From the NCBI RefSeq assembly GCF_021917145.1, contig NC_061073.1, positions 2,569,673-2,633,672 on the forward strand: a DNA stretch of 64,000 nucleotides, written 5' to 3'. Below, in pieces: positions 11,901 to 17,900 of the stretch. The notes under the pieces are model-generated. The model saw nothing but the letters and a program-made list of their open reading frames with translations, was not told where the DNA came from and did no database searches. Numbering within the stretch: the first letter of the stretch is position 1; each line of letters opens with the position of its first letter. Source of the stretch: Hypomesus transpacificus (taxonomy: Eukaryota; Chordata; Actinopteri; Osmeriformes; Osmeridae). The translations under genes were made by a program, and so were the position numbers.

Positions 11901-14900
11901 TCATTCGAGATGTACCTTAATCAGTGTCTAAGAGCAACTTAACGTTAGGTTATGCACAGAGCGACAATTTACGCTCAGGAAACTTTAAACTTTAAAGTTC
12001 ATCCTGTGTAAAAATTGTCGGTCTACTAAGCAACCACACATAAAACTTTGTATCTCAATAAAATTGTTCAGATGAAATGTTTTATACTTCATAGACAAAA
12101 TATTAATTATAGTTCTATGCATATCTATGAATGTTGTTGAGAGAGTTAACGGTGCTGCGTGCAGTTACCCACAGGGGAAACTAATGGCTGTTGCCAACCA
12201 CAGCATTTCCGGGCTTGTTTCTCATCTCTGGAGGATGTTTTTCGGTCCCGCTGCTTAAGCATCATTTCACTGTCATGGCAACAGAATCGCTAAGCCTGGC
12301 AACAGTGGGTCCCCTCTCAACGGTTACCCCAGTAACGGTTCGCGCCTGCTTCTTTTACGTTCTCTTTTTAGGTGGGTATAGAATGGCGCAGGTCCTTGGT
12401 GTCAACGAGCGGATGCGACAAAAATCTTGTTATTCGCTCATAACCTGAACTTCCGAATCTTCGACAACGATTTACTGCCCACATCTTATTAATTGATTTG
12501 TGGAAATATATGCTTGGAAATGATAACTTGACACGGCGCGTATTTTGTGTCTAAGTGATTATATATCATTGCCGGCGATTGTTTTGATCTTGTGTTGGTT
12601 ATGTAACCGATATTCAACAGTCGCTTACATTAGGCTTGATTCAAGACGCTAACCTGCATTTATCTATATGGCAGGACGGCCTGTTAGTTATTGTTGTTGT
12701 TTGTCGGTGGAACTAACCGGACACATTTGACTGGACTGATTAGTAGTGGTTGCTACAAGTAGAGAGTTGATCTGAGCATTAAATGTGTTTTTACAGTTGA
12801 ACAATTTGGAATGTAAGAAGATCAAGTTTGTGTAGGTTTTGTGTTTTGTAGTTTTTGTTTTCTGTTTCATTAGCCTGTCTGCCACTCTGCCCTTTAAGAT
12901 GCCAGGTGTGGTTTGAGGAGGACAGGCTTCCTAAACCACCTCTGTCTACTGCTAACTACCCCAATCTACCCCTAACTACTATTAACTACCCCCATCTACC
13001 CCTATCTCCTGCTAACTACACTGAATTACCCTTAACTACTGCTAACTCCTCCCATCTACCCCTCTAGATGTCAGGTGTGCCCAGTTGCGGAAGAACCGGC
13101 TGAGGCATCGGAATCTTCAGAATCCTGCAAATCAGCGCAACCCGTTGCAGAACCAGATCCTGAAGAGGAACCGGACCCGTCCCCCCCTCCTCCAGAGGAC
13201 GCTCCACCGGATTCAGAACCAGAACCGGAGCCCATTACCAAGCAACCGCAGAGGGCAGAGGTCAAAGTTTCAGTCGACGTTGGGGCCAAGGTATTGTGAC
13301 GATTGTAGATAGCCATGTTTACAGTGTGTGGATGTTTTCACCTTTTTAAGCCTGTCACTCAACAACAGGTAAAATAATAATATAATAACAATAATTATAA
13401 TAATAATAAAAATAAAAATAATCTTTAGCAGACGCTTTTATCCAAAGTGACGTACGGGGGTGAGGGGGGTGGGGTAGGGGTGGGGGGGGCTTGCGATCTC
13501 TTGATCTGCAGTCAAATACTGAGCAATGCCCATCCCCGCAGGTATTAGACCAGCTCACATCTCTGGGGATTTCAATCACAAATGCACTGTGCATCTTTCC
13601 TACCTGTTCTCTTGGTATAACCCTTGAGCAAACTATAACAGTTATTGCTAATGCTACAGCACTCAGACTGATAGACAGAGTTTCTACCACTCACCAAACT
13701 GCTTTCTGCTGCACCCCCACTGTTCAGGAGGAGCATGAGCCGGAGACTGCAGACCAGGGATGTGGGGGTACGTGGTATTTATTATCTCCATAGATGATGT
13801 TGTTTTGGTCATGTGTTTGTTTATGGGTGCAGAATTGCTAATACATCCCAGTACCATCCTGTATCCCAGGACCACCCTTGAGAATTTTGTATTAAATGAA
13901 ATAAAAATGACGGCTATGAGGATTGTTGTGATGAAACTATACGGGTCAGTGGATGCTGAGAACTGTGTTAGGGATTGTGTGCGTGTTTGAGCACCTGTGT
14001 ACTCTATGCCTGTGAACTCTCTCAATACTATCCTACGTCTCACAATGTTGCCTAAACATTCTTCCATAGGCATCTTAACACATGTTGTTGAAATGCTCGA
14101 GTTCCCCTCTGCCAGCATTCCTTTCCTGCCTGAGTCATTGCATGTTTCACAGCCTGCCTGCTTTCTTCCCCAGCCCCAGCCAGGTGCGATGCAGTAACGA
14201 GCTGTCTCATGTCTATCCCTCACGGCCCTGAGTGCCTGGACAGCATCAATACCGCGCTGAAGGAAAAAAACATTACCCTTCCAAAAGTGCCCCCTATGCC
14301 CGAGTTTCCCACCCAGCTCTCCCAGATCACCCAGCAGATCCCTTCCCTCCCCCCGGAGCTCAAAGAGGAGTACACCCACATCGGCCAGAGGTTCACCCGC
14401 TACCCACGGGAGCTGTACGAGGAGATCAACCTGCAGCTCAACCAGCTTAACCAGCAGTACCCGGGCCTGAGCCGGCCCTCGCAGGTCCTGCCCCAGCAGC
14501 TCTCTAACCTGCCCCAGCAGCTCTCCAACCTTCCCCAGCATCTCTCCAACCTTCCCCAGCATCTCTCCAACCTTCCCCAGCATCTCTCCAACCTTCCCCA
14601 GCAGCTCTCCATCCTGCCCCTGCGGCTTTCCGGCCTGCCGCAGCAGCTCTCTAGCCTGCCCCTGCAGCTCTCCAGCCTGCCCCAGCATCTCTCCAGCTTG
14701 CCCCAGCACCTGACCCAGTTGCCCCAGCAGATCTACCAGCTCCCGGAGCGGGCCCAACAGTACTACCTCAACGTCCAGAACCGCCTCAACAGCCTTAAGC
14801 CTCAAGATGCCTAAACCGCAGCAGAACCACGGACAGAACAAAATCCAAAACCTCGAACTGGACCGTCTAGTCCGACACTCCCCCCTGCCTCCTCACCCGT

Positions 14901-17900
14901 GCCGCACTCCATCCCCCTCCTCCCCCGTCTCTGGCTTGGAACTGCCCAACGTGCCCCACTACCCCCGCCTGCCCCCTATCAGCCCCCCTGCTCTCTCCGG
15001 CCTCTCCAACCCCGCCTTCCACATCAAGGACGACTCCGGCTCTGCCGGCCCGCGGCCTGCAGGTGAAGCTATGGTGGCGGTCTCTGTGTTGGAGAGGGTC
15101 GGTTTGAGCAGGTCACAGTGACAGTGGTTAATCTCCTTCAAGGATCGTTTGTTTTGCAGGTTCAGATCAGGAGTTAAGAAACTACTGCTAATTGGCTCTC
15201 GTTTGATGAGCAAGGCATTCACAATGCCAATTACAATTTCCACTGAACAATATGTTGACAGATCAGTCACATTGCTCAATGCCTTCCTCTCCAACACACT
15301 CAATGTTCCCCACGGTCTCTATCTAGCTTTGCTCTGGTGTTCTGTGGTGTCTCTGGCGTCCTGTGCTGTACTGTGCTTTACTGTTGTGTCTGTTGTGTCC
15401 GTACTGTTGTGTCTGTTGTGTCCATACTGTGGTGTCTGGTGTGTCCATACTGTGGTGTCTGTTGTGTCTATACTGTGGTGTCTGGTGTGTCTATACTGTG
15501 GTGTCTGTTGTGTCTATACTGTGGTGTCTGGTGTGTCTATACTGTGGTGTCTGGTGTGTCTATACTGTGGTGTCTGTTGTGTCTATACTGTGGTGTCTGG
15601 TGTGTCTATACTGTGGTGTCTGGTGTGTCTATACTGTGGTGTCTGTTGTGTCTATACTGTGGTGTCTGGTGTCTCTGGTGTCTGTAGTGCTCTGTGTTGG
15701 CTATGGTGTCTTTGGTGTACTGTGGTACTGTATAATGTGTTGTTTGTGGCGTACCTTTTAGAGGTCTCTGTGCTTCATCATGGGTGGTAGTTGTTGCCAA
15801 TCCAGTCGTCTGTTGTGTGTGTTAGTGTGTTTTTTCGTCCATATTGCTCTCCATTCTTTATATAGTTTTAAACAAAAATTGGTTTTGTGACTGTCACTCT
15901 AGCAGGTTTCTCTCTAGACATAGTGGAAGTTGTGTGTAGACAGGAGTATGCTAGACAGCTTTTGGTCTGTGTTCCACAGCCAGCAGTGTAGATGACCTGG
16001 AGTGTAGTCAGCCTACCAGCAGTGTTACATTCTCCCCCAGAGAACATAAGCCCATGTCTTCACCATGTAGATAGCTCTATGTAGGTCAATAGAGAGCCAC
16101 ATTCTAAACTCTTAAGTATCTAAACTAGAACCTAGAACAATTTTCCACATTTATCTGTCCTTGCTTGTGGAAAAAAATGCATTTCTTAGGAGCCCTTTAT
16201 GATCCCATTAAAACCTTCTCATTCTATTATTCCCCGACAAAAAGCGTTCTTGAAAGATTTTCAAAGATTTTCTCCTACAAGAGACACACCAAAGAACCCA
16301 GTATAATCCTCGTCTGCCCCACAAAATATTTGTGTTCTAGTGGCGTCCTTGTTACAAGGAGGTCTACGCACTCCACAGCAGTGAGCTGTGTGGACTCACC
16401 CTGTCTATCTGTCCCTTTCTAGAAAGTTCCAGACTCAGCCCCCACCCTGCCGTCAACGTGGAGGATGTGGACTCAGACCGCGAGCTGGGAGGAGCAGGAG
16501 GAGACGAAGAGGGAGGAGGCATCCGCCAGCGGCACATCCCCCAGATTCTTACCCCCCAGGACCCCAATCTCAAGACCCTCACCGTTCCTGTCGCCATCAA
16601 GGCTGGGCGCCCAAGGTGAGTCCACTCTCACTACTCTTACTCAGCTCAGCTCTCAAATTCAATCATATTTTGCTTTTAAATAGATTAACATTTGAGATTG
16701 CATTAACATTTTATTCATATAGTAGACACTTTTATCCAAAGTGACGTAACAGTCTTTTTTACAAGCAATATCACAGCAGGTTCCACAGATGCCCACAGAA
16801 CAGCTAGAACCTTATAAACCACCTAGAAACTGTACAATGCAGCTGCTAGTGTGTTGATGTTACTAATGGCTACATACAGTATACATATGCAGCCTAAATA
16901 ATATGATACCAACATCATCAACAATATTGCTTTAGGAAATGGATTGTAACTATATCTCTGTGTGATTTTCTCTCCAATATTGCATTGACCCATTCAGCAA
17001 ATCTGCAGATAAAGAGTAAGAATTTAGCATGGATGTTGAACATGAGAGCTTAGACCTTAGACCTGGCTGTGTCCTTAATCGCATATTTTTACTCTTTAGT
17101 TTAAGTTGGTACAGCAGTTGCCAGGACAAAGTACATACTGTTGCATTCAATGTGCATACAATTTTACTTGTTAAGAACATACAGTACTGCTTCATCATAT
17201 AAATGTAATATTAACTTGCACAGATGCCAAATGCTACCACAAGTAGTAGGACATCCGGGTATTTTTAGCATACTGCATTAGACATACTTAGTATTAGCAA
17301 TTTCTAGCCAACTAAATAGTATGGTAGTATGGGTATTGGGACACAGTTCAAGGTGCAATTCAGAACGCAGCCAGTTTACTGTGTACAGTGAGCTTTTCTG
17401 TCTCCATTGACATCTCCAGTGTCTCCTGCGAATCCTACTGTTTGTCTTATGTAAAGCATTCTACTTCCTTTCAACATCATTGAAGTTTTTTTGCAAGGAA
17501 TAGGTAGCTTCAAGTACACATGTGGTTTGCTGGGGCACAAGGACACATTTTGATAGAAGCATGACTTATTTCTAGGTCTTTACACAACAGCGGTTATGGT
17601 CTTTGACTCTTCCCTCTTTGTCTTGTCCTTGGTCCTGCGTTTTGATGTGCTGTGCTTTAGGCTGTGCTTTGTCGTGCTGCGCTCTGCTATCTATCATGTT
17701 CCTTTGAGATTGTATTTCTGCTCCAATGGCTGTAATTAGCTATAAGAGCAACAGACTGCAGAAGGATGATCTGGGCCTTGCCTCTTCAGTTTAGAACCAT
17801 TTATCTTTCCTGGCAGGATGATTTGATTTAACAAAGTCAAACAGAGTTAACTTGAGGGACAACACTCTGTCAGGCATAGTTAGAAAATGGTCCCTGCTAC

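Follow-up and report, generated by a model that had tools for sequence, protein, structure and literature searches.

A cassette exon of fish cngb1 that may be an old alternative C-terminal exon rather than a damaged in-frame one

The stretch of DNA analyzed here, hereafter the window, comprises 64,000 nucleotides (nts) of the Hypomesus transpacificus genome (NC_061073.1, positions 2,569,673 to 2,633,672, forward strand) and carries a cngb1 gene in which an optional cassette exon, containing a stop codon, lies between the region encoding the GARP part and that encoding the membrane channel. The gene model was assembled one exon at a time, guided by splice sites and phase, and spans from an ATG at 4629 to a TGA at 25362. 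Besides the cassette, 37 exons join in one open frame, bounded by AG acceptors and GT donors with the sole exception of the E26 donor, taken as GC. The GARP region upstream of the channel features W...PQP-type motifs and acidic stretches, while from exon E18 onward the model is matched by human and bovine CNGB1. In a comparison of a 428-residue channel stretch, which encompasses the pore and the nucleotide-binding region, with solved structures, the top three matches were CNGB1 (best 1.6e-243), followed by CNGB3 (1.2e-203). Skipping of the cassette, which joins exon E17 directly to E18, leaves an intact channel of 1378 residues. An earlier sequence-only reading of this DNA had likewise described an intact skipping form but gave its length as 1367 residues, the figure obtained when an in-frame 33-nt microexon (18067-18099) is left out. 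The analysis covered this one genome (437 Mb, 376 contigs), which harbors two cngb1 copies, and 40 kb around the second copy was examined.

Splice sites were scored with a matrix trained on the 36 donors and 36 acceptors of cngb1 itself, whose medians are 8.3 and 9.8, and whose weakest constitutive sites score 3.06 and 2.6, respectively. By this measure the cassette possesses ordinary sites (acceptor 8.8, donor 8.6). Its entry and exit in phase 1, and the two reading frames that the sequence-only reading had assigned to it, are borne out in the rebuilt model: the exon is open up to the TAA, and 14807-15061 is open in the next frame, which fits E18. A codon score, which ranked the right frame best in 17 of the 18 exons of at least 100 nts, favors the assigned frame on either side of the break. 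Translation of the inclusion form halts between the GARP region and the membrane part, as had been claimed, although the computed product measures 782 residues rather than about 777.

The second cngb1 copy, located on another contig (C19), provides the most informative comparison. A local tblastn search with the pre-stop part of the cassette detected a homologous exon there (E 3.8e-14; C19:11940921-11941466, or L026:7422-7967 in the local extract). This exon has the homologues of E17 and E18 on its two sides, and these too join in phase upon skipping; its acceptor scores 6.5 and its donor 8.1. Its coding part ends with a TGA after NHLNSLNPISQQPNA, and that of the window cassette ends with a TAA after the same conserved block. 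Aligned as protein, the two pre-stop parts score 138, compared to 61 for the best of 500 shuffles, with the identity residing in two blocks (24 of 60 and 14 of 26 residues). Across 77 codons, none counted twice, 34 residues are identical, and the nonsynonymous and synonymous divergences (dN and dS) are 0.44 and 1.28, giving a ratio of 0.34. Codon differences number 28, 21, and 43 at the first, second, and third positions, respectively (P 0.0006). Downstream of the stop, no clear relation between the copies was found at either level: the DNA alignment score of 27 compares with a mean of 25.5 and a maximum of 40 among 200 shuffles, and the protein score of 47 was reached by 66 of 500 shuffles. 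Judged by these alignments, clear conservation between the copies ends at the stop, and the stop itself was most likely inherited from before the two copies parted. We infer that they date from the teleost genome duplication, because dS exceeds 1 and because a study of CNGB1 duplicates considers them most likely retained from that event (PMC9803222).

These observations lead us to lean, with modest confidence, toward the view that fish cngb1 has in this cassette an old alternative C-terminal exon, not an in-frame exon that was damaged. Skipping would then give the full channel subunit, whereas inclusion would append a conserved peptide to the GARP region and terminate there, yielding a predicted protein devoid of the membrane part. 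This scheme supposes that real transcripts contain the exon and escape decay; the resulting protein would presumably be soluble and act in a GARP1-like manner. An evolved switch to such a soluble form was among the proposals of the sequence-only reading, and gains support here at the sequence level, although that reading had left out the exposure of the inclusion form to decay considered below.

The sequence-only reading had also described an exon broken by a 7-bp tandem duplication. The near-repeat does exist, yet it is imperfect, with 6 of 7 positions identical, and its role in creating the stop is unsupported, since there is no period-7 near-repeat around the stop of the second copy, and yet that copy terminates after the same block, where clear conservation ends. 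The stop thus needs no duplication. Indeed, the frame change is obtainable equally well by many 1-bp insertions: the best switch point is 14803-14804, but all positions from 14778 to 14814 fall within 2 log units of it. Comparable period-7 matches recur within the cassette at 14839 and 15046, and the 14-bp repeat string occurs four times in the genome, this site counted. At the thresholds used, 14714-14820 contains no further near-tandem repeat of period 4, 7, 10, or 13. A recent frameshift or an assembly error, in the form of a 7-bp or 1-bp insertion into a once in-frame exon of 882 or 888 nts, would account for a frame switch that coincides with the near-repeat and for the coding-like character of both sides in their own frames, and would accord with the second copy's exon of 546 nts, whose length is divisible by three and which contains one stop. 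We nevertheless regard both events as improbable, because the homologous exon is not open through the stop site either (in this one genome), conservation of the post-stop part is not clear, and all 37 remaining exons keep to one open frame.

Several observations weigh against an old alternative ending. Foremost, the TAA sits 248 nts upstream of the cassette donor, farther than about 50 nts from the exon junction, such that a spliced inclusion mRNA is expected to undergo nonsense-mediated decay. Between the start of the exon and E18, the window has a single signal of AATAAA or ATTAAA type, an ATTAAA at 16207, and the second copy likewise has one, an AATAAA at 27441 that lies within the pre-stop part. 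A reading of the cassette as a terminal exon was dropped accordingly, as neither copy has a good signal past its stop. Owing to the location of the stop and the lack of a good poly(A) signal, decay is a serious possibility. The corresponding rival is a poison exon, whose inclusion would tune channel dose through decay without any protein being made. Good donors in both copies fit such an exon, as does the general layout, in which an exon that can be skipped carries an in-frame stop well ahead of its donor. However, poison exons tend to conserve DNA rather than protein, whereas the pre-stop part is conserved between the copies as protein, with its differences concentrated at third positions. 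On balance, a poison exon seems unlikely, while standing as the main rival.

Further counterevidence to the alternative ending comes from the post-stop part. The frame that continues into E18 is open in both copies, with chance probabilities from dinucleotide shuffles of 0.27 in the window and 0.015 in the second copy, where 96 codons are open in phase with the next exon (L026:7679-7966). The codon score of the window's post-stop part was equaled in that frame by none of 1000 shuffles, and in any frame by three. As a control, 16.8% of 95 intron windows match this score in a random frame, and 54.7% do so in their best frame. An internal intron at 14184-14730 (547 nts; donor 8.8, acceptor 5.8, sum 14.6) would remove the stop region and leave the exon in frame, in two pieces of 10 and 332 nts. 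It belongs to a set of 101 frame-restoring introns within the cassette, of which the best pair the donor at 14183 with acceptors at 14730, 14982, or 14778; once this donor is set aside, the best remaining one scores 3.03, just below the weakest constitutive donor. In-phase internal acceptors are present in both copies (14792 in the window, leaving 270 nts, and 27712 in the second copy, leaving 255 nts), as are in-phase ATGs (14807 and 27721). Given the open frames, the window's codon score, the bypass intron, and the multiple-of-three length of the second copy's exon, the last part of the exon may have a second use, or the ancestral exon may have been coding over its full length.

A second use could take the form of an exon read in two ways: a GARP1-like protein would finish in the pre-stop part, and the post-stop part would code in E18 phase through an internal intron, an internal acceptor, or use as the first exon of a short channel that starts at the ATG. 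The open frames and coding-like score speak for this arrangement. Conversely, the bypass intron would leave a first piece of a mere 10 nts and has no counterpart in the second copy, whose 36 comparable introns score 1.5 at most; the openness of the window frame is chance-like; and the two post-stop parts are not clearly related. A genome-wide search with the window's post-stop part returned only itself. The candidate acceptor at 14792 was rejected, as it scores −4.0, under the weakest constitutive acceptor. We thus hold a two-way exon to be rather unlikely. More doubtful still is its boldest version, in which one exon would serve two proteins. Its first part would end the soluble, GARP1-like one, and its last part, which overlaps with the stop (ATGCCTAA, 14807-14814), would start or join a channel isoform. 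If true, splicing or promoter choice at a single exon would split the gene into structural and channel halves. The in-phase ATG also invites comparison with CNGB1b, the short channel that lacks the GARP region, in that it would start a GARP-less channel of 894 residues.

Separately, an AG and a GT meet directly at 14183-14184 (acceptor 8.05, donor 8.78), an arrangement reminiscent of recursive splice sites, which could aid skipping of the cassette or begin an internal intron. Use of this AG as a tandem acceptor was considered and discarded, as the resulting frame hits a stop.

Lastly, the stop could be passed by +1 ribosomal frameshifting or readthrough to produce a long channel, given that the post-stop frame runs into E18 and that a modest RNA structure is predicted downstream (z −1.75). 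This we consider highly improbable: 10 of 200 shuffles fold as well, and the second copy would need same-frame readthrough with no shift. We know of no ribosomal shift motif here, although no search aimed at one was made.

The proposed alternative ending bears comparison with the mammalian GARP proteins. We take bovine GARP1 to part from the channel at residue 571. Since the alignment of E18 begins at bovine CNGB1 residue 577, its first residue extrapolates to approximately residue 571, and the fish ending may fall within the intron at which bovine GARP1 branches off. The predicted fish form also resembles mammalian GARP1 in its overall layout, as it is encoded by the 5′ portion of the gene, ends in residues of its own, lacks the membrane part, and would be soluble. 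It differs in construction: mouse GARP1 derives from exons 1-16a (PMC5309851) and has 16 unique last residues (PMC12783967), whereas the fish gene has a separate cassette of 889 nts with its own donor and a tail of 213 residues. The comparison with mammalian GARP1 covered the position of the ending and the layout of the product.

A distinct, upstream ending resembles that of GARP2. Exon E12 can be extended by eight residues, GGKALRAP, followed by a stop, and this octapeptide and stop are identical in the second copy (C19:11929574; L027:6075), where E12 itself was not found. DNA conservation between the copies extends over the acceptor, the stop, and some downstream sequence. Mouse exon 12a likewise encodes eight residues (PMC12783967) and similarly supplies an alternative ending inside the GARP region. 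Unlike the stretch after the cassette stop, this separate exon (from 8915) is accompanied by AATAAA signals.

If the cassette is included in mRNA, the GARP1-like ending would be an old feature of the gene that each of the two fish copies has retained. Zebrafish cngb1 copies are reported to differ in the photoreceptors where they occur, rods for one and cones for the other (PMC9803222). A literature search, in the portions of the sources available, yielded nothing on this fish cassette exon. Should the proposed endings be real, the roles of GARP1 and GARP2 would become testable in fish by removal of single exons. More generally, the case advises caution, as a seeming frameshift within an exon can be a genuine alternative ending.

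Table 1. Features in and around the cngb1 cassette exon (window coordinates)
Feature	Position	Strand	Remarks
GARP2-type last exon	8915..9050	+	E12 plus eight residues and stop; AATAAA signals at 10018 and 10242; end of exon not fixed
Exon E17	13728..13767	+	Adjoins cassette upstream; leaves in phase 1
Cassette exon	14174..15062	+	889 nts; phase 1 in and out
Alternative C-terminal coding part	14174..14811	+	213 residues including split first codon; first ~60 residues and a last block of 26 conserved in second copy
AG/GT junction	14183..14184	+	Donor 8.78; candidate start of an internal intron that would bypass the stop
Heptad array	14488..14739	+	12 seven-residue units of LPQQLSN type; absent from second copy
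7-bp near-repeat	14791..14806	+	Imperfect, 6/7 identical
In-phase ATG	14807..14809	+	In phase with E18; would start an 894-residue short channel
Inclusion-form stop	14812..14814	+	TAA; second copy stops just after same conserved block
Post-stop part	14815..15062	+	Open in phase of exon at 16423; no significant similarity to second copy
Exon E18	16423..16615	+	Bovine CNGB1 alignment starts at residue 577; first residue extrapolates to ~571

Within the pre-stop part, the heptad array is taken as a later expansion; its 21-bp units exhibit synonymous changes at 11 of 32 in the coding frame, a weak signal. Matches of this part to Pfam families and solved structures are interpreted as low-complexity matches to the array, and were set aside, one of them (Baculo_PEP_C) having scored above the cut-off. 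Fold prediction gave no confident model of the pre-stop part (mean predicted local distance difference test score, pLDDT, 48). Relatives of either cassette part were absent from bacterial, archaeal, and viral contigs in all four scans, and Rfam yielded no match over 13000-17000. The intron after the cassette contains a minisatellite (15362-15676) with units of 23, 46, and 69 bp. Beyond cngb1, the neighboring sequences at 29797-30192 and 39331-39527 are of E2F type (Pfam, below cut-off) and ELMO type (Pfam, below cut-off; ELMO1, 7e-10), respectively.

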